Part shown: positions 29,108 to 35,977 of the stretch, piece after piece
Numbering within the stretch: the first letter of the stretch is position 1
Layout of the letters: each line of letters starts with the position of its first letter
Source: Oscillospiraceae bacterium
GTDB taxonomy: Bacteria; Bacillota; Clostridia; Oscillospirales; Oscillospiraceae
Direction of reading: 5' to 3'
Length of the DNA stretch: 44,845 nt
Assembly: GCA_017508045.1 (NCBI GenBank)
Contig: JAFVZT010000026.1
Coordinates: 1 to 44,845 of the forward strand
Translations under genes and position numbers: made by a program
The notes under the pieces: model-generated
Told to the model about the DNA's origin: nothing
The model's input: only the letters and a program-made list of their open reading frames with translations
Databases searched by the model: none

Positions 29108-29249
29108 GCAATCATAACCACCGGCCGCGCCGATGGTATGCACGGGCCCCCTTAGGACCTTTTGCCAGCTGAGCCTATAGGCTCAGCGAATTTTCTTTCG
29201 CTTGCGTGTTCCGCCCCACCACCGCAGATGCGGTTATGAGCAAACTAAA

Positions 29250-29377
29250 GGCCCCCTCTGACGAGGGGGCTGGATTTTGCGAAGCAAAAGACTGGGGGAG
29301 AGAATTTTCTCTACTTGTTTCTCTCCCTCCGTCAAAAATCAAATAGATTTTTGCCACCTCCCTCATCAGAGGGAGGC
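29250..29377. repeat. Five-hairpin repeat, copy A
   Basis: Order of parts: stem 1 GCCCCCTC/GAGGGGGC (29251-29258, 29263-29270); TGG; stem 2 TTTTGC/GCAAAA; ACTGGGGGA connector; stem 3 GGGAGAGAA with its partner; CCCTCCGTC connector; stem 4 CAAAAATC/GATTTTTG (29333-29340, 29346-29353); GCCA; stem 5 CCTCCCTC/GAGGGAGG (29357-29364, 29369-29376). Copies B and C share the connectors and outer stems but have different sequences in stems 2-4. Confidence 0.85.
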
Positions 29378-29448
29378 AAGCCGCTGCGGCGGGATTGGGC
29401 ATAGCTAAAGCTTTTTGGAACCACCGGCGTGCCGGTGGTATTCTTATA

Positions 29449-29486
29449 CAAAAACGGCGAAAGGAGAATTTCCCTTCCGCCGTTTC
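29449..29486 (-). terminator. Terminator of the NlpC/P60 gene
   Basis: Minus-strand AAACGGCG...CGCCGTTTTTG stem with an A/G-rich upper part, followed by TTTTTG. Confidence 0.75.
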
Positions 29487-29489
29487 TTG

Positions 29490-30329
29490 TTAATTCATTA
29501 CCCGTCCGCTGACGCTGTTTACCGCCAGATTTTCCGGGGCAGGTAAATCTATGCTGGTGTTAATAATGCGCCGGGCGCACAAAAAGTATTTTGCATAATA
29601 CGCAGAATCAAGGCTTCTGTACTCCACGCCCTTGCTAGCGGAGTGTATCATCTGGTTATTGCCCACATAAATGCCCACGTGGGAGGCAGGATAATGCTTG
29701 CCCGGCTCATAGAAAAAGACCAAATCTCCCACCTGCAGGGCTTCCTTGGGAATCACTACGCCGTCTTGCAGCTGGGTTGCCGCCGAACGGCTCAGGTCAA
29801 TTCCGTTTTCCCGGAATACGTAGCTGGTCAAGCCCGAGCAGTCGAAGGCGCCGGGTCGGGAAGCGCCGTAAACATACTTCGCGCCAATTTGCTCCTTTGC
29901 CAGAGTAAGCAGCCTGTTGCGCAAAACAAGCGCCCGGGCGTGGTCTGTATAGGTAAGCACGCGGGTGTCATTGGAATCTGTTTTGCAGTCTATGTAATAT
30001 TCTCCGCTGTCTGTATGTACAATCTGGCTTTTGAGAATATAGCCCTTCATATCGTAGCAATCCACTTTATAGTAACTGCCCTTTTTGCCCAAAACAGTCA
30101 CCTTTGTACCGTTTTCCATTTGACCAATGGCAGCTGACGCACTGTTTGCCTTTAGGCGGACCACTGTGGTCATAGTCTGCAGTGTGTCCTGGGATACCGG
30201 TATCTCCGATGTTGGGGATGCCGATTCGGATTCCGGTATAGCTGCCGCCGGCTGCATATGGCTCAAAAAGCACGCCAGGCACAAGGCGGCACTCAAAACA
30301 CGCAGACCCCATTTTCGGGTTCCGGTCAT
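29490..30329 (-). CDS. Secreted SH3b-NlpC/P60 cell-wall endopeptidase
   Basis: A 279-residue exported protein. A Sec signal with helix V-L-S-A-A-L-C-L-A-C-F-L ends near A-A-A (residues 27-30), with a Ser/Pro-rich linker. An SH3b-like domain spans about 55-105 (L-K-A-N-S-A-S-A-A-I-G, M-K-G-Y-I-L). The NlpC/P60 domain (about 140-255) has the catalytic Cys in F-D-C-S-G-L, His in S-H-V-G-I-Y-V-G and the third residue in M-I-H-S-A. Such enzymes cleave D-Glu-mDAP peptides during growth or spore wall remodelling. It has its own consensus promoter and terminator. Confidence 0.88.
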   Translation of the reverse strand: MTGTRKWGLRVLSAALCLACFLSHMQPAAAIPESESASPTSEIPVSQDTLQTMTTVVRLKANSASAAIGQMENGTKVTVLGKKGSYYKVDCYDMKGYILKSQIVHTDSGEYYIDCKTDSNDTRVLTYTDHARALVLRNRLLTLAKEQIGAKYVYGASRPGAFDCSGLTSYVFRENGIDLSRSAATQLQDGVVIPKEALQVGDLVFFYEPGKHYPASHVGIYVGNNQMIHSASKGVEYRSLDSAYYAKYFLCARRIINTSIDLPAPENLAVNSVSGRVMN

Positions 30330-30387
30330 AATTACAATTCCTTTCTTGGTTGCAAACTTGTACTGAAAAAGTTACAATCGGTTACGA

Positions 30388-30416
30388 ATTATAGCACGAA
30401 TGTAATTATCTGTCAA
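30388..30416 (-). promoter_or_regulatory. Perfect-consensus promoter of the NlpC/P60 gene
   Basis: Minus-strand TTGACA (30411-30416), 17-bp spacer, TATAAT (30388-30393). Confidence 0.88.
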
Positions 30417-30515
30417 CCCTGCTTATTATGAATAAACCCCCCTTGTTCCCTATTTTACTCCGGAAATATCCAAATATTTACAGGGTAAGTGGATTGAAAC
30501 AGCCGTATTTTGGGG

Positions 30516-30553
30516 CAAAATAAACCGCTGTGGATAAACTTCCTCCACAGCGG
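30516..30553 (-). terminator. Terminator after spoVT
   Basis: Minus-strand 10-bp stem CCGCTGTGGA/TCCACAGCGG followed by TTTATTTTG. Confidence 0.82.
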
Positions 30554-30566
30554 CAAGGCCGGTTTT

Positions 30567-31109
30567 TCAGGTTTCCAGTTGTTTTCCCAAAAATCCGGCA
30601 ACAGTCTGGGCAAGGCGCTGGTCTGCCTCTGCCATAGGCGTGTTGTCCTCCCCCATAAGCAGTAGAACACAGCCCATCAAGTCCCCCTGACTTAAAATCG
30701 GCGCAGCCACACCCAGGTGATACTTATCCGATCCCTCCAGTGCGCGAATGGGTGTATCGCCCGGGGTATAGCGGTAATTTTTCCGACTCTCCATAAGCTT
30801 TTCCAGCTCCATGGAATTTCGCTTGTCCATAAGCTCCCGCTTCGGCGCGCCGGCAAGGGCAATAATCCCATCCCGGTCGGTAACCGCCGCAACATAGCCC
30901 GTGTTTGCACCGATGGACTCGCACATCTGGGCAGCAAATTCCTGCATTTCCCCCATGGGGGAGTACTTTCTGAAAATCACTCCGCCGTCCTTTTCCGTAT
31001 AAATCTCCAGCGGGTCTCCTTCTCTTATCTTGAGGGTGCGTCTGATTTCCTTAGGGATAACAATTCTCCCCAAATCGTCCACTCGTCTAACGATACCTGT
31101 TGCTTTCAT
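30567..31109 (-). CDS. spoVT: Stage V sporulation regulator SpoVT (AbrB family)
   Basis: A 180-residue AbrB-type transcription factor active in the forespore, where it adjusts SigG-dependent genes. The N-terminal swapped-hairpin DNA-binding domain is M-K-A-T-G-I-V-R-R with D-D-L-G-R-I-V-I-P-K-E-I-R-R and L-K-I-R-E-G-D-P; the C-terminal GAF-like domain begins near residue 55 and includes A-V-T-D-R-D-G-I-I-A-L-A-G. ATG 31109 is used, with AAAGGAG upstream; an extension to 31214 crosses a repeat element. The leader is interrupted by five-hairpin repeat B. Three broken copies of the promoter, leader and first codons lie in the next 5 kb. Confidence 0.93.
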   Translation of the reverse strand: MKATGIVRRVDDLGRIVIPKEIRRTLKIREGDPLEIYTEKDGGVIFRKYSPMGEMQEFAAQMCESIGANTGYVAAVTDRDGIIALAGAPKRELMDKRNSMELEKLMESRKNYRYTPGDTPIRALEGSDKYHLGVAAPILSQGDLMGCVLLLMGEDNTPMAEADQRLAQTVAGFLGKQLET

Positions 31110-31138
31110 ATATCTTTCTCCTTTTCTGCGGCGTATAA

Positions 31139-31264
31139 GGCCCCCTTGTGTAAAGGGGGCTGGCAGAAATCTCTGATTTCTGACTGGGGGATTGTTTTTA
31201 TCGATACATTGCAATCCCTCCGTCTGCGCTTGCGCGCAGCCACCTCCCTTTGCACAAGGGAGGC
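31139..31264. repeat. Five-hairpin repeat, copy B (in spoVT leader)
   Basis: Same skeleton as copy A: GCCCCCTT/AAGGGGGC outer stem; CAGAAATC/GATTTCTG; ACTGGGGGA; GGGATTG/CAATCCC; CCCTCCGTC; CTGCGC/GCGCAG; CCTCCCTT/AAGGGAGG. It separates the spoVT promoter region (about 31290-31340) from the ribosome site at 31120. The two promoter-side leader fragments at 32.5 and 33.9 kb lack it. Confidence 0.85.
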
Positions 31265-31334
31265 TTTGTTGCCTACAATAATTTTACAAATTACGCTGTT
31301 AGTATCTGTAAACTCACGGAGATTATACCGCCAC

Positions 31335-31380
31335 AAATAAAAATGAACCTACGCTTTCTTTTCCGAAAGAATAGGTTCAT
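31335..31380 (-). terminator. Terminator of the XRE gene
   Basis: Minus-strand stem ATGAACCTA/TAGGTTCAT with an inner TTTC/GAAA pair, then TTTTTATTT. It overlaps the stop codon of the XRE gene. Confidence 0.7.
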
Positions 31381-31580
31381 CTTTTTTGAAATTCTTCGCC
31401 TGTGATTAGATAATTGATAGAAACATTATAATATTTCGACATTGCAACTAACAACGCAAGGGACGGCTCTCGTTTGCCGTTTTCGTAATAGGACAAGGCT
31501 TCACGGGAAATATTCAAGTCCATTGCTACCTTTTGCTGATTCAAATTCCGTATTTTTCGAATATTTTTTAGCCCAATCAT
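31377..31580 (-). CDS. Small XRE-family repressor
   Basis: A 67-residue single helix-turn-helix protein. The HTH spans about residues 13-37 (Q-Q-K-V-A-M-D-L, S-R-E-A-L-S-Y-Y-E-N-G-K-R-E-P-S), typical of Cro/C1-type repressors, followed by a short dimerisation helix L-V-A-M-S-K-Y-Y-N-V-S. It is divergent from two zinc-ribbon miniproteins, with two 17-bp dyads between, so it probably controls itself and them. It sits at the left edge of the AT-rich island. Confidence 0.87.
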   Translation of the reverse strand: MIGLKNIRKIRNLNQQKVAMDLNISREALSYYENGKREPSLALLVAMSKYYNVSINYLITGEEFQKR

Positions 31581-31601
31581 CCAATCACCCCTTGCATTTA
31601 T

Positions 31602-31642
31602 TGTAACATTGTGTTACATTATTTATGTGACAGTTTGTTACA
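31602..31642. promoter_or_regulatory. Two 17-bp dyad operators between the XRE and zinc-ribbon genes
   Basis: Site 1 (31602-31618) is TGTAACA-TTG-TGTTACA, a perfect dyad. Site 2 (31626-31642) is TGTGACA-GTT-TGTTACA, one mismatch. Centres are 24 bp apart. Likely target of the divergent XRE repressor. Confidence 0.72.
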
Positions 31643-31664
31643 TAACTAAAAGGAGGTAACCTTT

Positions 31665-32000
31665 ATGAAATTCTGCACCCATTGCGGAAGCGAAATAAAT
31701 GATAACGCAATTGTTTGTATTAAATGTGGCTGTACCGTTGAATGTAAAAATATAAACAAACCTGCTGTTCAACCCGAACACAAATCATCCGCATCATTAG
31801 TCCTCGGAATTATCGGAATTGTTTTTGCTTGGTTATTTGCATTGGTTGGTCACATCACATCTATTATTGGTATTATCCTTGGCATTAAGGAGTACAAGGA
31901 AACGGAGAAAATGACAGGTCTTGTATTAAGTATCATTGGAGAAGTCTGTTCAATCTTCTCTTCAATTATTGGCGCTGTTGCTTTTTCAAGTGTTTTTTAA
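31665..32000 (+). CDS. Zinc-ribbon membrane miniprotein (DUF4190-like)
   Basis: A 111-residue protein. The N-terminal zinc ribbon is C-T-H-C...C-I-K-C-G (Cys4, C-x2-C-x12-C-x2-C) in the first 25 residues, a polar linker follows to 45, then two hydrophobic helices (about 47-72 and 85-108) of the DUF4190 type with a short K-E-Y-K-E-T-E-K turn between. Probably an integral membrane protein with a cytosolic metal-binding head. AGGAGG precedes the ATG, and the gene is directly downstream of the dyad operators. Function unknown. Confidence 0.78.
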   Translation: MKFCTHCGSEINDNAIVCIKCGCTVECKNINKPAVQPEHKSSASLVLGIIGIVFAWLFALVGHITSIIGIILGIKEYKETEKMTGLVLSIIGEVCSIFSSIIGAVAFSSVF

Positions 32001-32059
32001 TTATTAAAAAAATATTTAATCGGCATAGTGTCGATTAAATTACAAAAGGAGAGATACAT

Positions 32060-32326
32060 ATGAAATTTTGTCAGCATTGTGGTAAGGAAATCGTGGATGA
32101 GGCTGTAATCTGTCCTGGCTGCGGTTGTTCTGTGCAAACTACAAACAACAATCAGGTAGCAGAGGTCGATGAGTCTGTTAGCGCAGGCTTGGTTATATTG
32201 GCCATTCTCATTCCTTTGTTTGGTATCATTTATTGGCCTGTAAAAGCAAAGACCCGTCCTAAGTGTGCACAGGCTTGTGGTATCGCAGCTATCATCGCTT
32301 GGGTCGTATATCTCTTGATCCTTTGA
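32060..32326 (+). CDS. Zinc-ribbon membrane miniprotein, second copy
   Basis: An 88-residue relative of the gene before it: M-K-F-C-Q-H-C-G-K with a second C-P-G-C-G pair forms the zinc ribbon (residues 1-25), a short acidic linker follows, then two helices separated by P-V-K-A-K-T-R-P-K. Ribosome site AAAGGAGAG. The pair probably shares a transcript; a hairpin with ATTTAATCG/CGATTAAAT arms lies between them. Function unknown. Confidence 0.75.
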   Translation: MKFCQHCGKEIVDEAVICPGCGCSVQTTNNNQVAEVDESVSAGLVILAILIPLFGIIYWPVKAKTRPKCAQACGIAAIIAWVVYLLIL

Positions 32327-32341
32327 CCCCATAAAAATTCT

Positions 32342-32372
32342 AACAGCGCGGTAGATCTTCTACTGCGCTGTT
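32342..32372 (+). terminator. Terminator of the zinc-ribbon genes
   Basis: 14-bp stem (32342-32355 with 32359-32372, one mismatch) followed by ATTCTTTC. Confidence 0.72.
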
Positions 32373-32536
32373 ATTCTTTCTGCAACACTATGTATCGCCC
32401 AGCAGAATCTGCCGATTGGTGTCAATGTTGTATGTGAGGGGTCGCCTTCTCTTATCTTGAGGGTGCGTCTGATTTCCTTAGGGATAACAATTCTTCCCAA
32501 ATCGTCAATTCGGCGGACAATACCGGTTGCTTTCAT
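32360..32536 (-). pseudogene. spoVT/AbrB footprint 1: truncated N-terminus with leader
   Basis: A 58-codon frame whose first 33 residues are the AbrB start M-K-A-T-G-I-V-R-R-I and D-D-L-G-R-I-V-I-P-K, up to R-E-G-D-P, and then diverge into unrelated sequence. The rest of the AbrB fold and the GAF domain are absent, so it should be non-functional. Its leader (to about 32602) matches the spoVT promoter and leader without a hairpin repeat. The tail after G-D-P shares the motif TTGACACCAATCGRCAG with footprint 2, so both descend from one truncated copy. Confidence 0.8.
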
Positions 32537-32606
32537 ATATCTTTCTCCTTAAATCACAAATTGTGTTGTTATTATCTGTATTTCTGGGAGAAATATACCC
32601 TTTTAG

Positions 32607-32635
32607 TTTACTTTTGCAAACAAAAGTGTTATAAT
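32607..32635 (+). promoter_or_regulatory. Promoter of the acyltransferase gene
   Basis: TTTACT (32607-32612), 17-bp spacer, TATAAT (32630-32635). Confidence 0.55.
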
Positions 32636-32654
32636 GAACTGAGGCGGTGAAAAC

Positions 32655-33656
32655 ATGAACACTCAAAAAAACTATACACTTGAATTATTAAAATTGTTTG
32701 CATCATACATGGTGGTGTTTATTCACATAATGTTTTATGGGAAAATGGGTATTATTATGGAAACTTTAGCTCGATTCGCAGTACCTCTTTTCTTTTTAAT
32801 ATCTGGCTATTATTCTTTTCAAATTAAACCTGAAAAAATCATAAAAAGAATAAGACACCTATTGGGTTTAATTGTATTTGCGACAGTTTGTTACACCTTG
32901 TTTAATATAGTAATTGTATTCTTAAAAGGTAATGTGCGCGATATTGCTTCCTATTTGGGAAAATATCTTAATATTGGAACGCTAATTAAACTTTTTATAT
33001 TTAATGTTCCTGTTAGCTCTGTTCATTTGTGGTATTTGTTGGCAACGGTTTATGTTTATGTAGTTTTTTATTTTGTAACGATGCTCCGTTTGAACGAAAA
33101 AGTAATATTCATAGTCTCTTTTTCGCTTTTATTTTTACATATATTGTTGGGCGAGTGTCTTTCTGCTTTAGGAATTGTTGTACCTATTCCCATTGTGCGC
33201 AATTTCGCCTTAGTGGGTATTCCGTTTTTTGCACTGGGTTTGTTTACAAAAAAGCACGAGAACAAATTACGCAGCATCCCTAATTATGTTCTTATTATAG
33301 CGGTTGCAGTTGGAGTTTTTGAATGCCTATTTTCTCGATATTTTTTCGGCAAAAATGAGTTGTACATTGGTTCTTTACTTATTTTGTTTGCGATTGTCGT
33401 TGTATTTATTAAGTATCCAACTGTCAATTACCCTCCTTTTTTAAACGCCTTGTCAGGTTGCAACACCTATGTTTATATTTTCCATGTTATGATATCTACT
33501 GTGATTTTCCAAATATATAAACTGTTTATCGTTGATTTCAACGCTTCTATAATTGTTAAATGTGCACATCCCATCATAGTGTGCGTTGCATCAACCGTCT
33601 TTGCATACGGAATTATACAATTGCTAAATGTTCTTTCATCAAAAAAACAAAAGTGA
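32655..33656 (+). CDS. Acyltransferase family 3 membrane protein
   Basis: A 333-residue, strongly AT-rich gene for a multi-pass (about ten helices) acyltransferase-3 family protein. The family hallmark is an early L-E-L-L-K-L-F-A-S-Y-M-V-V-F-I-H helix with His22 in the expected place, F-A-V-P-L-F-F-L-I-S-G-Y-Y near 42, and V-H-L-W-Y-L-L near 123. These enzymes O-acylate cell-surface polysaccharides or other extracytoplasmic acceptors. Base composition differs sharply from the genes on either side, which, with its position between two AbrB footprints, suggests transfer. Ribosome site GAGGCGG is only fair. Confidence 0.85.
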   Translation: MNTQKNYTLELLKLFASYMVVFIHIMFYGKMGIIMETLARFAVPLFFLISGYYSFQIKPEKIIKRIRHLLGLIVFATVCYTLFNIVIVFLKGNVRDIASYLGKYLNIGTLIKLFIFNVPVSSVHLWYLLATVYVYVVFYFVTMLRLNEKVIFIVSFSLLFLHILLGECLSALGIVVPIPIVRNFALVGIPFFALGLFTKKHENKLRSIPNYVLIIAVAVGVFECLFSRYFFGKNELYIGSLLILFAIVVVFIKYPTVNYPPFLNALSGCNTYVYIFHVMISTVIFQIYKLFIVDFNASIIVKCAHPIIVCVASTVFAYGIIQLLNVLSSKKQK

Positions 33657-33674
33657 TATTTAATCATTTTTTAT

Positions 33675-33713
33675 AAAGCAATAGCTGAGTGAAATTCACT
33701 CAGCTATTGCTTT
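33675..33713. terminator. Perfect 19-bp palindrome after the acyltransferase
   Basis: AAAGCAATAGCTGAGTGAA (33675-33693) and its exact inverse (33695-33713) with a single central base. T-rich flanks on both sides make it a possible bidirectional terminator; the arm length is unusual. Confidence 0.6.
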
Positions 33714-33878
33714 ATGCCTATTTACCACACTATGTATTGCCCAGCAAAACCTGTCGATTGGTGTCAATGTTGTCAGCAAGGGGTCTCCTTCACGAATTTT
33801 TAAGGTTCTTCTGATTTCTTTGGGAATCACGATTCTCCCCAAATCGTCAACACGGCGTACAATACCAGTTGCTTTTAT
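33696..33878 (-). pseudogene. spoVT/AbrB footprint 2: truncated and start-less
   Basis: Codons 2-33 repeat the AbrB start (K-A-T-G-I-V-R-R-V, D-D-L-G-R-I-V-I-P-K, R-E-G-D-P), with mostly synonymous changes relative to spoVT, but the start codon is ATA instead of ATG. After G-D-P the frame runs into the shared T-L-T-P-I-D-R-F-C-W-A-I-H-S tail and stops inside the palindrome of the neighbour. The leader to about 33945 matches footprint 1 and lacks a hairpin repeat. Confidence 0.78.
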
Positions 33879-34134
33879 ATATACATTTCTCCTTAAATTA
33901 CAAATTGTGTTGTTATTATCTGTATTTTGAGGAGATTTATACTGCGTGAATTTGCTTTTTGAGTTTAGTATGTTGTAATAAAAAAGGTGTTTAATACCAT
34001 TCTCGAAAACGGAATAGTAATTTTTTTGTTTATAGGGTTAGCCTATTTATTTATCAATACCAAAAAGAAATTTGTCTTATTACGGAATTCCTCTATTTTA
34101 TGCCTACTTAAACCTTGGTAGTAACACTGAAATG

Positions 34135-34163
34135 TTGACAAGATTTTTCAAACATGCTATACT
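34135..34163 (+). promoter_or_regulatory. Promoter of the alcohol dehydrogenase
   Basis: TTGACA (34135-34140), 17-bp spacer, TATACT (34158-34163). Confidence 0.82.
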
Positions 34164-34210
34164 TGAAACAGTTAATAACCAATATATTTTATAAAAGGAG
34201 TTAATTACTT

Positions 34211-35344
34211 ATGGCAACATCTAAAGTGGCATATCTTGTTAAACCGAAAATCGTTGACGGTGTTGAGGGAGAGGCAATCGTTGAGCTTCGCGACATCGAA
34301 ATTCCTACTCCCGGCCCCGGTGAAATTCTTGTTAAGGTTGAAGGCTGCGGCATCTGCGGTACCGACGTTCACGAATACCGTTACAATCCGTTTGGTTATA
34401 AAGAAATCGTTCTTGGTCACGAAGGAACCGGTGAAGTTGTAGCAATCGGTGAAGGCGTTACCGTTGACACAAAGGGCGACCCCATTAAAATTGGCGATAA
34501 GGTTGTTACCTCTGTTCTTCTTTGCGGTGAATGTGATTACTGCCGTCGTTACCCCGAGCTTCCCAACCTTTGCGAAGGCCTCGGCGTTTACGGTCTTATC
34601 GAAGACGATGCAGAGCATCACAACAACGGTTGGTTTGCAGAACACATTTTGGTTCGCAAAAACTCATCTATCTTCGTTGTTAACGGCATGAGTATTGACG
34701 AAAGAATGCTCATTGAACCCGCTTGCGTTTGCGTTCATTCTTGGAACCGCGCAAAATCCACAAACCTTATCAATTTCGGTTCTACCGTTTTGGTACAGGG
34801 TTGCGGACCTATCGGTCTTATGCAGATTGCTGTTCTTAAGGCAGCCGGCGTTGTAAATATTATTGCAGTTGACGGCGTTGATACCCGTCTCGAGCTTGCC
34901 AAGGAAATGGGTGCTACTGCTGTTATCAACTTCAGAGAGCTCAAGACAATCGAAGAGAGAGTTGCCAAGGTTAAAGAGCTTACCCACGGCTTCGGTGCAG
35001 ACTTTGTATTCCAGTGCACAGGCGTTCCTCAGGCAGCTGCAGATGCTTATAAGTACGTTCGTCGCGGCGGCGGTTACTGCGAAATGGGCTTCTTTGTAAA
35101 CGCAGGCGAATGCACTATGAACCCCCACTTCGACCTTTGCAACAAGGAAATCACCTTAGTTGGTTCTTGGGTTTACAGTGCTAACGAGTACATTGAAACT
35201 CTTGGCTTCTTGAAGAAGGCTAAAGAGATGTCTATCCCCGTTGAGAAACTTGTAACACATCATTATCCCTTAGAGCAGTATGTTGACGCTATGGAAAAGA
35301 ACATTTCTCTCACCGGCGTTAAGATTGCCATTGTTATGGAATAA
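34211..35344 (+). CDS. Zinc-dependent medium-chain alcohol/polyol dehydrogenase
   Basis: A 377-residue MDR-family dehydrogenase. Catalytic zinc ligands are C-G-I-C-G-T-D-V-H-E-Y (Cys near 50) and G-H-E-G-T-G-E near 72; the structural zinc loop is L-C-G-E-C-D-Y-C-R-R...C-E near 104-120. The Rossmann NAD(P) site is V-Q-G-C-G-P-I-G-L-M near 197, with an Asp at the end of the second strand (V-D-G-V-D). It probably oxidises a polyol or secondary alcohol to a ketone. It has a near-consensus promoter and a terminator. Codon use (many GTT and CTT) differs from flanking genes, which fits transfer. Confidence 0.88.
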   Translation: MATSKVAYLVKPKIVDGVEGEAIVELRDIEIPTPGPGEILVKVEGCGICGTDVHEYRYNPFGYKEIVLGHEGTGEVVAIGEGVTVDTKGDPIKIGDKVVTSVLLCGECDYCRRYPELPNLCEGLGVYGLIEDDAEHHNNGWFAEHILVRKNSSIFVVNGMSIDERMLIEPACVCVHSWNRAKSTNLINFGSTVLVQGCGPIGLMQIAVLKAAGVVNIIAVDGVDTRLELAKEMGATAVINFRELKTIEERVAKVKELTHGFGADFVFQCTGVPQAAADAYKYVRRGGGYCEMGFFVNAGECTMNPHFDLCNKEITLVGSWVYSANEYIETLGFLKKAKEMSIPVEKLVTHHYPLEQYVDAMEKNISLTGVKIAIVME

Positions 35345-35370
35345 ATAATCAAACCTATAAAACAGAAACA

Positions 35371-35397
35371 AAGCGAGGGGAACTTCCCCTCGCTTTT
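35371..35397 (+). terminator. Terminator after the alcohol dehydrogenase
   Basis: AAGCGAGGGGAA/TTCCCCTCGCTT arms with a very short loop, then TT. Confidence 0.85.
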
Positions 35398-35508
35398 ACT
35401 ATGTATAAAAACCGCCAAAAACCTTTTTTGACACCAATGCGTTCAATGGGGCAAACCGGCGAAAACTCCAGTTTTTATGCAGCTTTCAAGCGGTTTGCTC
35501 TATTATAA

Positions 35509-35771
35509 CGCACCCCTCCACCCGACGGACGATTCCTGTTGCGGTACCCGACATCTTCGTCGGCTTTCAAAAGCTGTCCTCATCTGCCGCCCGTTTGTTG
35601 TGCCCGATATTCTCCTCGGTGCGAACACCTTCGTCGACTATCGACCACGGCACACACTACGCCTGCACTGCATCTGCCACAGGCAGCGTGCAGGCTCGTG
35701 GCCGCGGCCACTCGCTCAGGTCGCTCCTCCCGCCTCAGGCGGTGCTCCCATCGCTCCCCAGTTGCTTTCAT
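35509..35771 (-). pseudogene. spoVT/AbrB footprint 3: interrupted by a 218-bp insertion
   Basis: ATG 35771 begins M-K-A-T-G as in spoVT, then the frame runs into a GC-rich segment (35543-35760); after it the sequence resumes with A-T-G-I-V-R-R-V-E (35509-35542, minus). The segment is flanked by a GTTGC direct repeat (35538-35542 and 35761-35765), fitting a 5-bp target duplication. The remaining AbrB and GAF sequence is missing. Its leader contains five-hairpin repeat C at the place where repeat B sits in the intact spoVT leader. Confidence 0.75.
35543..35760. mobile_element. GC-rich 218-bp insertion
   Basis: GC-rich, with several internal palindromes: GTGGCCGCGGCCAC (35698-35711), CCTGCAC/GTGCAGG arms near 35662-35694 enclosing CTGCC/GGCAG. 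It is flanked by GTTGC direct repeats. No terminal inverted repeat and no credible frame are visible, so the type of element is unknown. Confidence 0.5.
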
Positions 35772-35805
35772 ATATCTTTCTCCTTTTCTGCGGCGCACAT
35801 CTCTT

Positions 35806-35926
35806 GGCCCCCTTGTTGAGGGGGCTGGCACGGCGAACGCCGCGACTGGGGGAGTGTCCCGTCGATTATCGCGACACTCCCTCCGTCATTTGCTTTGCAA
35901 ATGCCACCTCCCTCAAAGAGGGAGGC
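35806..35926. repeat. Five-hairpin repeat, copy C
   Basis: Outer stem GCCCCCT/AGGGGGC; stem 2 CGGCG/CGCCG; ACTGGGGGA; stem 3 GGGAGTGTC/GACACTCCC; CCCTCCGTC; stem 4 CATTTGC/GCAAATG; stem 5 CCTCCCTC/GAGGGAGG. Downstream flank CTACAAT-ATTTTACAAATTACGCTGTTA is shared with copy B. Confidence 0.85.
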
Positions 35927-35977
35927 AAGGCTATGCCCCTACAATTATTTTACAAATTACGCTGTTATTCTTACACA

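Follow-up and report, generated by a model that had tools for sequence, protein, structure and literature searches.

Insertion sequences of the IS200/IS605 family have same-strand, subterminal hairpin ends and insert without target duplication, and the miniature inverted-repeat transposable elements (MITEs) of DDE insertion sequences are gene-less copies with terminal inverted repeats and adjacent target duplications that accompany copies carrying the DDE transposase gene. Repetitive extragenic palindromes (REPs) or bacterial interspersed mosaic elements (BIMEs) together with RAYT (TnpA-REP) genes form 'REPtrons', in which the palindromes are intergenic and carry a GTAG tag and RAYT is a Y1 HUH enzyme, according to PMC3733652 and PMC8266576. 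In PMC3733652, a 2013 survey, CGTC-tagged REPs are one of two REP superfamilies and apparently lack a dedicated transposase. DUF559 proteins are described in PMC12907096 as Vsr-like and PD-(D/E)XK, and one of them, Caulobacter VsrA, as required for an SOS response in cells without a cytosine methyltransferase. In this study we analyzed a contig of 44,845 nt (JAFVZT010000026.1, hereafter the window) from an Oscillospiraceae bacterium (assembly GCA_017508045.1, 76% complete, labelled G000), which holds three copies, A, B and C, of an intergenic hairpin repeat. Our reading, to which we assign a probability of roughly 0.6, is that these copies are gene-less, MITE-like versions of a mobile element with hairpin ends, which in its full form has a DUF559 endonuclease gene in the loop of its central stem. 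The anatomy of such an element is well supported, and the mechanism proposed below is probable.

The coordinates, stems and connectors given for the three copies by a first-pass annotation were all confirmed in the sequence (Table 1). Each half of the element is laid out as an outer palindrome, a second hairpin and a connector beginning GACTG or GACGG. The element closely resembles its own reverse complement: the left half is GGCCCCCT..AGGGGGCTGkC-hairpin-GACTGGGGGA, and the right half, in reverse reading, is GCCTCCCT..AGGGAGGTGGC-hairpin-GACGGAGGGA. Since the two end palindromes are able to pair with each other, the whole element is an imperfect inverted repeat. That the end palindromes double as terminal inverted repeats, and that fuller copies bear a gene, were both absent from the first-pass annotation. 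The five-hairpin form described there stands as an alternative fold, but in the minimum-energy fold stems 1 and 5 are joined into a long outer stem enclosing the three inner hairpins. The folding energy of all three copies is well below that of shuffled sequences on both strands (z from -6.95 to -9.03, equalled by none of 200 shuffles).

In one relative, an open reading frame (ORF) replaces the central loop, and its product matches PF04480 (DUF559) with E 3.9e-28 and 97.9 bits against a curated cut-off of 20.6. The protein also matches PDB 3hrl (E 9.2e-11), and residues D49, E60, D62 and H66, which mark it as a member of DUF559, are invariant across 50 proteins. A total of 38 PF04480 matches were found in 18 of the 41 genomes of the genus, with 30 loci read; the order yielded 53 matches from 33 of 117 genomes and 26 of 71 genera, including the one of G000, with 29 further loci read. 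Element halves were detected on both sides of 29 of the 54 full-domain DUF559 genes read in the order and on one side of 13 more (15 and 8 of 28 in the genus, 14 and 5 of 26 in the rest of the order). Among 273 control ORFs of at least 270 nt, called mechanically in the same locus sets at a distance from DUF559, none was flanked by halves on both sides and eight were on one side. Five hits with a partial domain were counted apart, none of them flanked on both sides and two on one side. A stricter detector found halves on both sides in 23 of 59 loci and on at least one side in 38 (controls, 0 and 5 of 273), and a looser one was discarded because 6 of the 273 controls were then positive on both sides and 63 on one. 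Both halves face the gene in 29 of the 54 gene-bearing loci. The ends of gene-bearing copies, found without the core pattern that defines the short copies, carry GACGG in part and GACTG or GGCGG in others. In several clades the DUF559 frame stops inside the downstream half, and the last residues of the protein are read from the half, as in QSLSQLR and PSVTFGDSSPQGEP. The only PF04480 match of G000 (locus L252 on contig C24) also lies between halves, in an apparent parE-parC junction.

The enclosed protein belongs to the same family as Caulobacter VsrA and PDB 3hrl. VsrA is discussed as a mismatch-repair endonuclease, and the word stem 'palindrom' does not occur in the main text of PMC12907096. 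No title or abstract opening in open-licence PMC text was found to tie DUF559 to repeats or mobility. In Faecalibacterium prausnitzii A2-165, PMC8836110 reports a mam gene adjoining a DUF559 gene. A defence function was considered and rejected, the PADLOC matches being weak only (best DpdF, E 3.7e-7).

A phylogenetic tree was constructed from the 54 proteins, of which 39 rows received an end-type label (that of L267 set by hand), 14 were left unlabelled (L260 and L275 by hand, despite one detected side) and one, a duplicate, was removed. Over the 39 rows there are 10 changes of end type, against a mean of 23.1 when labels were shuffled (minimum 19 in 300), and within the genus 4 over 22 rows against 11.1 (minimum 8). 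The CTCCCTTG end type was found across six host families. Moreover, gene-less copies share the extension of their central stem with the nuclease element of the same genome at all seven loci at hand in G017 (10 of 11 in the full list), at both loci in G034 and at one in G012. The same agreement was found for one of the four copies in G000, where copy C has the GTGT extension of L252 and different end cores, and at two of eight places at hand in G016 (3 of 22 in the full list). In Bifidobacterium goeldii a complete gene-bearing copy (L365) and a gene-less form are present in one genome, and the left half of the short copy L122 has the end core CGGCTG and the extension GCGTC as in L365.

The match between clade and end type bears directly on the possibility that DUF559 is a passenger. 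The ends would then belong to repeats spread by another enzyme, such as a Y1/RAYT transposase, or by general recombination, and breaks or exchange would have placed DUF559 between them. Genes for Y1_Tnp are indeed present in 21 of the 41 genomes of the genus, a larger repeat with Y1-type ends encloses copy A, and five of nine genomes with short copies are without a detected DUF559 gene. We consider a passenger unlikely, as the end type follows the nuclease clade both within the genus and across host families, the DUF559 frame extends into the downstream half in several clades, DUF559 genes in 19 hand-picked records of a plasmid collection also adjoin C-rich palindromes, and the loops favoured at one end are on the opposite strand from those at the other, in contrast to IS200/IS605, whose ends are on the same strand. 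A RAYT-like partner, suggested in the first-pass annotation, did not materialize: the sole link to Y1 that was seen is the larger repeat around copy A, Y1 genes around all copies not having been tested. The partner that was found is DUF559. The larger repeat seems to be an IS200-like non-autonomous element into which copy A was inserted.

Evidence bearing on movement of the hairpin-ended DUF559 element comes from shared gene junctions, where gene names (dnaK, dnaJ, parE, parC) were read by eye from translated ends. The dnaK-dnaJ junction was followed in 30 loci, of which 26 could be parsed. To the eye, at least 11 species appear to have nothing in this slot. G009 and G031 have the gene-bearing form there, G012, G033 and G029 have short forms of three types, G030 and G034 show a lone end palindrome, and in some cases other repeats occupy it; copies occur there in both orientations. 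Lone end palindromes (L190 near 440; the L328 and L346 junctions) resemble collapsed elements whose interior was lost between the inverted ends. At the parE-parC junction the gap is 14 nt in G018, and gene-bearing elements are present in G002 and G012; the parser succeeded for 2 of 30 loci here, and the evidence is that of G000 and G018 together with the flanks of G002 and G012.

Several observations weigh against a mobile DUF559 element. The detector of halves was written after such flanks had been seen and was therefore not blind, and 12 of the 54 DUF559 genes (5 in the genus, 7 in the rest of the order) have no detectable half. In some gene-bearing forms both ends are of the left type or both of the right type, so that the difference between left and right is no rule, and two faecal phage records and two viral-contig loci display partial, missing or outward-facing halves. 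Three of the four copies in G000 and six of the eight places in G016 (19 of 22 in the full list) are of types for which no nuclease of the same type was seen in the genome. The right half of the B. goeldii copy L122 is of another type than its left half, which makes this copy a mosaic. Among 37 genomes of the genus, many of them incomplete metagenome-assembled genomes (MAGs), presence is not correlated: DUF559 was found in 4 of 9 with short copies and in 12 of 28 without. The DUF559 genes at common junctions may be vertically inherited. Finally, the flanks of 75 copies show no adjacent target duplication (2.17 versus 2.26 for shuffled flank pairs). Inverted repeats in the flanks were in no clear excess (4.04 versus 3.90, with 35 of 200 shuffles as high), and direct repeats anywhere in the 30-nt flanks were in small excess (4.87 versus 4.54, with 0 of 200 shuffles as high; L046 has one of 12 nt).

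If the element is mobile, its life cycle may be pictured as follows. In single-stranded or supercoiled DNA each end would fold, aided by very stable GNA or GNNA loops, and the DUF559 nuclease would recognise the folded ends and cut there. Repair or joining of the cut DNA would put copies into intergenic sites without obvious target duplication, and gene-less copies would be served in trans; it is from sequence comparison that we infer DUF559 to be their mover. Breaks at hairpins would also drive conversion between dispersed copies, bounded by the common connectors, with hairpins and halves swapped as matched units. Such conversion can explain stems that differ between copies and yet pair.

The first-pass annotation had observed that the inner stems differ between the three copies and still pair, and this holds over the complete copies of the family. 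In 91 parsed copies, pairing of each stem with its own partner (G-T allowed) was compared with 500 shuffles. It reached 0.984 for hairpin 4 (shuffled mean 0.464, maximum 0.564; 82 of 89 perfect over five positions), 0.889 for hairpin 2 (0.531 and 0.608; 45 of 72 perfect), 0.919 for the central-stem extension (0.542 and 0.640; 69 of 89) and 0.884 for the outer-stem core (0.567 and 0.648; 47 of 85), and all four stems fit their own partner far better than the partners of other copies. The frames of hairpins 2 and 4 are the best-fitting among 12, the connectors are invariant by design of the search pattern, and stems that were too short or unequal-armed were excluded (19 for hairpin 2, 2 for hairpin 4, 2 for the extension and 6 for the outer core).

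The stems act as modules that recur in different combinations, which agrees with the earlier suggestion of exchange between copies. Each of the 14 hairpin-2 sequences that recur was combined with at least two different hairpins 4, and the converse held for 13 of the 15 hairpin-4 sequences that recur; six hairpin-2 and nine hairpin-4 sequences were found with more than one end type (three and five without the mixed class 'other'). The extension, for its part, tracks the end type (GAGA with CTGACG in 42 of 44, TTGT with TGTG in 16 of 16). At the site orthologous to copy B, which is empty in G011 and G033, hairpin 2 in G034 and G022 is near-identical to that of copy B and hairpin 4 is different but still pairing, with three base pairs changed on both sides. 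Because hairpins 2 and 4 recur across types and the orthologues of copy B keep the one and change the other, hairpins seem to be swapped as whole units.

The claim that such covariation indicates selected folding was upheld in part: pairing persists under sequence change, but conversion between copies or templating within hairpins would also yield covariation. Mutation mechanics of this kind (templated correction within hairpins, conversion between copies) might preserve pairing with no selection for the fold at all. Discrete hairpin sequences that recur across end types fit replacement by units, and the three hairpin-4 base pairs changed in the copy B orthologues and the two types of half combined in L122 point the same way; the strand-specific loop preference and the enclosure of a gene are left unexplained. 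We regard this alternative as improbable, and it can be reconciled with a hairpin-ended DUF559 element.

Loop choice adds indirect evidence on the molecule that folds. The most frequent loop class on the inward strand of either half is GNA, which is present in 33 of 91 hairpins 2 and in 43 of 91 hairpins 4, compared with 0 and 1 on the opposite strand; 30 of the 33 GNA-loop hairpins 2 are closed by C-G, and 17 of 26 Bifidobacterium halves at hand have a GNA loop. Hairpins with GNA or GNNA loops are called extraordinarily stable in DNA in PMC4686876. The GNA loops on the inward strands, which are opposite strands at the two ends, together with this stability favour folding of single-stranded DNA over RNA. 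The first-pass annotation had left the choice between the two open, and the loops lean, indirectly, to single-stranded DNA.

If the copies acted as a structured RNA (a leader, an attenuator or a bidirectional intrinsic terminator) whose compensatory changes were selected in the transcript, this would accord with the strong RNA folds, with GNRA-type loops among hairpins 4 on the minus strand, and with the locations of copy B in a SpoVT leader, of copy C beside a repeated leader fragment and of other copies between operon genes. Nevertheless, both strands fold strongly (about equally in copies A and C, the minus strand of copy B being 10.7 kcal/mol weaker), both orientations occur in the dnaK-dnaJ junction, the favoured loops are on opposite strands in the two halves, and only a few of 78 copies have tails (T-rich on the right in 19, A-rich on the left in 19, both in 9), so an RNA function seems very unlikely. 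At gathering score the Rfam matches in the window are three tRNAs only. Both an intrinsic terminator, given the few copies with tails, and a known Rfam RNA family, given the lack of such a match in the window, were rejected as candidates.

Compared with the described systems, the hairpin-ended DUF559 element works like a REPtron, but its enzyme and tag place it outside REPtrons. The likeness lies in short intergenic palindromes that often form inverted pairs, cognate palindromes having a nuclease gene nearby or between them. The differences are that a DUF559 protein (PF04480) is enclosed and not a Y1 (HUH) transposase flanked by repeats, that each end has two palindromes, and that the GTAG tag of RAYT repeats is absent beside the palindromes. 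The connectors are GACTG and CCGTC, and GTAG-type palindromes are separate neighbours in SpoVT leaders.

CGTC-tagged REPs, in the form given in the survey, are resembled by hairpins 2 and 4 in tail and head-to-head order. Hairpin 4 reads CCGTC-stem-xCCA and the reversed hairpin 2 AGTC-stem-CCA, with heads facing. The CCGTC of hairpin 4 is imposed by the search pattern, and the AGTC of hairpin 2 is outside the published list of tags (CGTC, TGTC, CCTC) that accompany a CCA tail. Head-to-head dimers, which predominate among CGTC REPs, are found in 29 of 54 gene-bearing loci and are true by construction in short copies. Most copies depart from the published rules for stem, first pair and loop (a stem of 8-9 bp starting with A-T pairs and a loop of 4-5), hairpin 4 having a stem of 6 or 7 bp in 67 of 91 and a commonest loop of 3 nt; the comparison with CGTC families is by form only.

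The gene-less copies with terminal inverted repeats alongside gene-bearing copies resemble MITEs of DDE insertion sequences, and differ from them in that adjacent target duplication was not seen and the gene-bearing form has no DDE transposase. Hairpin ends, one small nuclease and the lack of target duplication are shared with IS200/IS605 and their palindrome-ended derivatives; the nuclease is of another family, with no Y1, and the favoured loops are on opposite strands at the two ends.

DUF559 genes of other phyla were examined in a plasmid collection, in which two queries found DUF559 in 39 and 38 records; 19 of these were read, hand-picked across genera of Proteobacteria, Cyanobacteria and Deinococcus. 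C-rich palindromes were found on both sides of the gene in 6, on one side in 9 and on neither in 4, against 0, 7 and 103 of 110 control annotated coding sequences from five of the same replicons. The presence of close relatives in the set means that these counts are not independent. The same test applied to the 54 DUF559 genes of the order Oscillospirales gave 30, 16 and 8, with 1 both-sided and 21 one-sided among 264 control ORFs. In Novosphingobium the ends have by eye the same architecture as the family in the window, and they were missed by the automatic palindrome test. Some proteobacterial DUF559 genes (flanks L391-L406; e.g., L393 of S. meliloti) border a palindrome CCCTCACCC..CCCTCTCCC..GGGAGAGGG, and the ends in Shinella presumably resemble rhizobial mosaic elements.

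We tentatively suggest, with somewhat less than even confidence, that a widespread class of palindrome-ended mobile elements, present in clostridia, bifidobacteria, proteobacteria, cyanobacteria and Deinococcus, has DUF559 proteins as its dedicated enzymes. Gene-less derivatives of this class would make up many orphan families of intergenic palindromes, perhaps CGTC REPs and rhizobial mosaic elements among them, with stems reshuffled by nuclease breaks at hairpins. An uncharacterised endonuclease family would thereby gain a testable job and orphan palindromes a candidate enzyme, and the mover of such repeats becomes a question for the bench. The element would point to an unrecognised route by which short palindromes spread through bacterial genomes. 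It also calls for caution, since intergenic hairpins that covary may represent the ends of mobile elements instead of RNAs.

The core pattern was found at four places in the G000 assembly, namely copies A to C and a further one on contig C9, and the reversed control had none; the left-half pattern was found at five. It matched 9 of 60 genomes, G000 included, all of one genus, and the reversed control none. At least 119 stretches of a public genome collection contain the core pattern. Their titles, among the matches listed, are MAGs named Oscillospiraceae, Ruminococcaceae, Clostridia, Eubacteriales or similar, many of them from animal guts, and the sole isolate among them is B. goeldii. Of 148 unique pattern hits, 91 were parsed fully, with 61 distinct hairpins 2 and 66 distinct hairpins 4; the ends of the other 57 did not fit the patterns that the parser uses, and some of these hits are truncated by the end of a contig. 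A whole-element pattern recovered 78 copies with a median of 122 bp. In the genus of B. goeldii, left halves were found in 19 of 101 genomes, with a maximum of 102 per genome and none in the control. Several contigs of G008 start or stop at matches to element halves of equal length and identity, which probably makes the count of copies in this genome too low.

Table 1. Hairpin-repeat copies in the window, their parts and adjoining features.
Feature	Position	Strand	Basis or remark
Copy A, gene-less element; extension GAGA, end core CTGACG	29250..29377	+	sequence, fold, core pattern
Copy A left end palindrome	29250..29270	+	sequence; folds onto right end
Copy A hairpin 2, TTTTGC-GAA-GCAAAA, GNA loop	29275..29289	+	sequence, fold
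Copy A central stem; loop position is the DUF559 gene site in gene-bearing relatives	29290..29333	+	sequence, comparison
Copy A hairpin 4, CAAAAATC..GATTTTTG	29333..29353	+	sequence, fold
Copy A right end palindrome	29357..29377	+	sequence
Copy B, gene-less element; extension TTGT, end core TGTGTAA	31139..31264	+	sequence, fold, core pattern, orthologous sites
Copy B hairpin 2	31164..31182	+	sequence, fold
Copy B central stem	31183..31224	+	core pattern
Copy B hairpin 4; unlike hairpin 4 of orthologous copies in G034 and G022	31224..31239	+	sequence
Copy C, gene-less element; extension GTGT	35806..35926	+	sequence, fold, core pattern
Copy C hairpin 2, CGGCG-AA-CGCCG	35831..35842	+	sequence
Copy C central stem	35845..35887	+	core pattern
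Copy C hairpin 4, CATTTGC..GCAAATG	35887..35903	+	sequence
Larger repeat hosting copy A, outside the element proper	29109..29454	.	ends match flanks of Y1-transposase genes in G019 and G030
SpoVT-type gene; copy B upstream of gene	30570-31109	-	

A SpoVT/AbrB-type N-terminus and leader fragments are repeated in the window at 31012-31123, 32439-32550, 33781-33894 and 35758-35967. Relatives carry similar arrays of SpoVT/AbrB fragments, with insertions of several unrelated palindromic repeats making the leader a hot spot. The same leader slot is filled in relatives by other palindromic repeats, GTAGGGACACC.., GTAGTGGCGGGG.. and GTCATTCTGAGC.. (L151 near 3221, L153 near 3200 and L187 near 4552).

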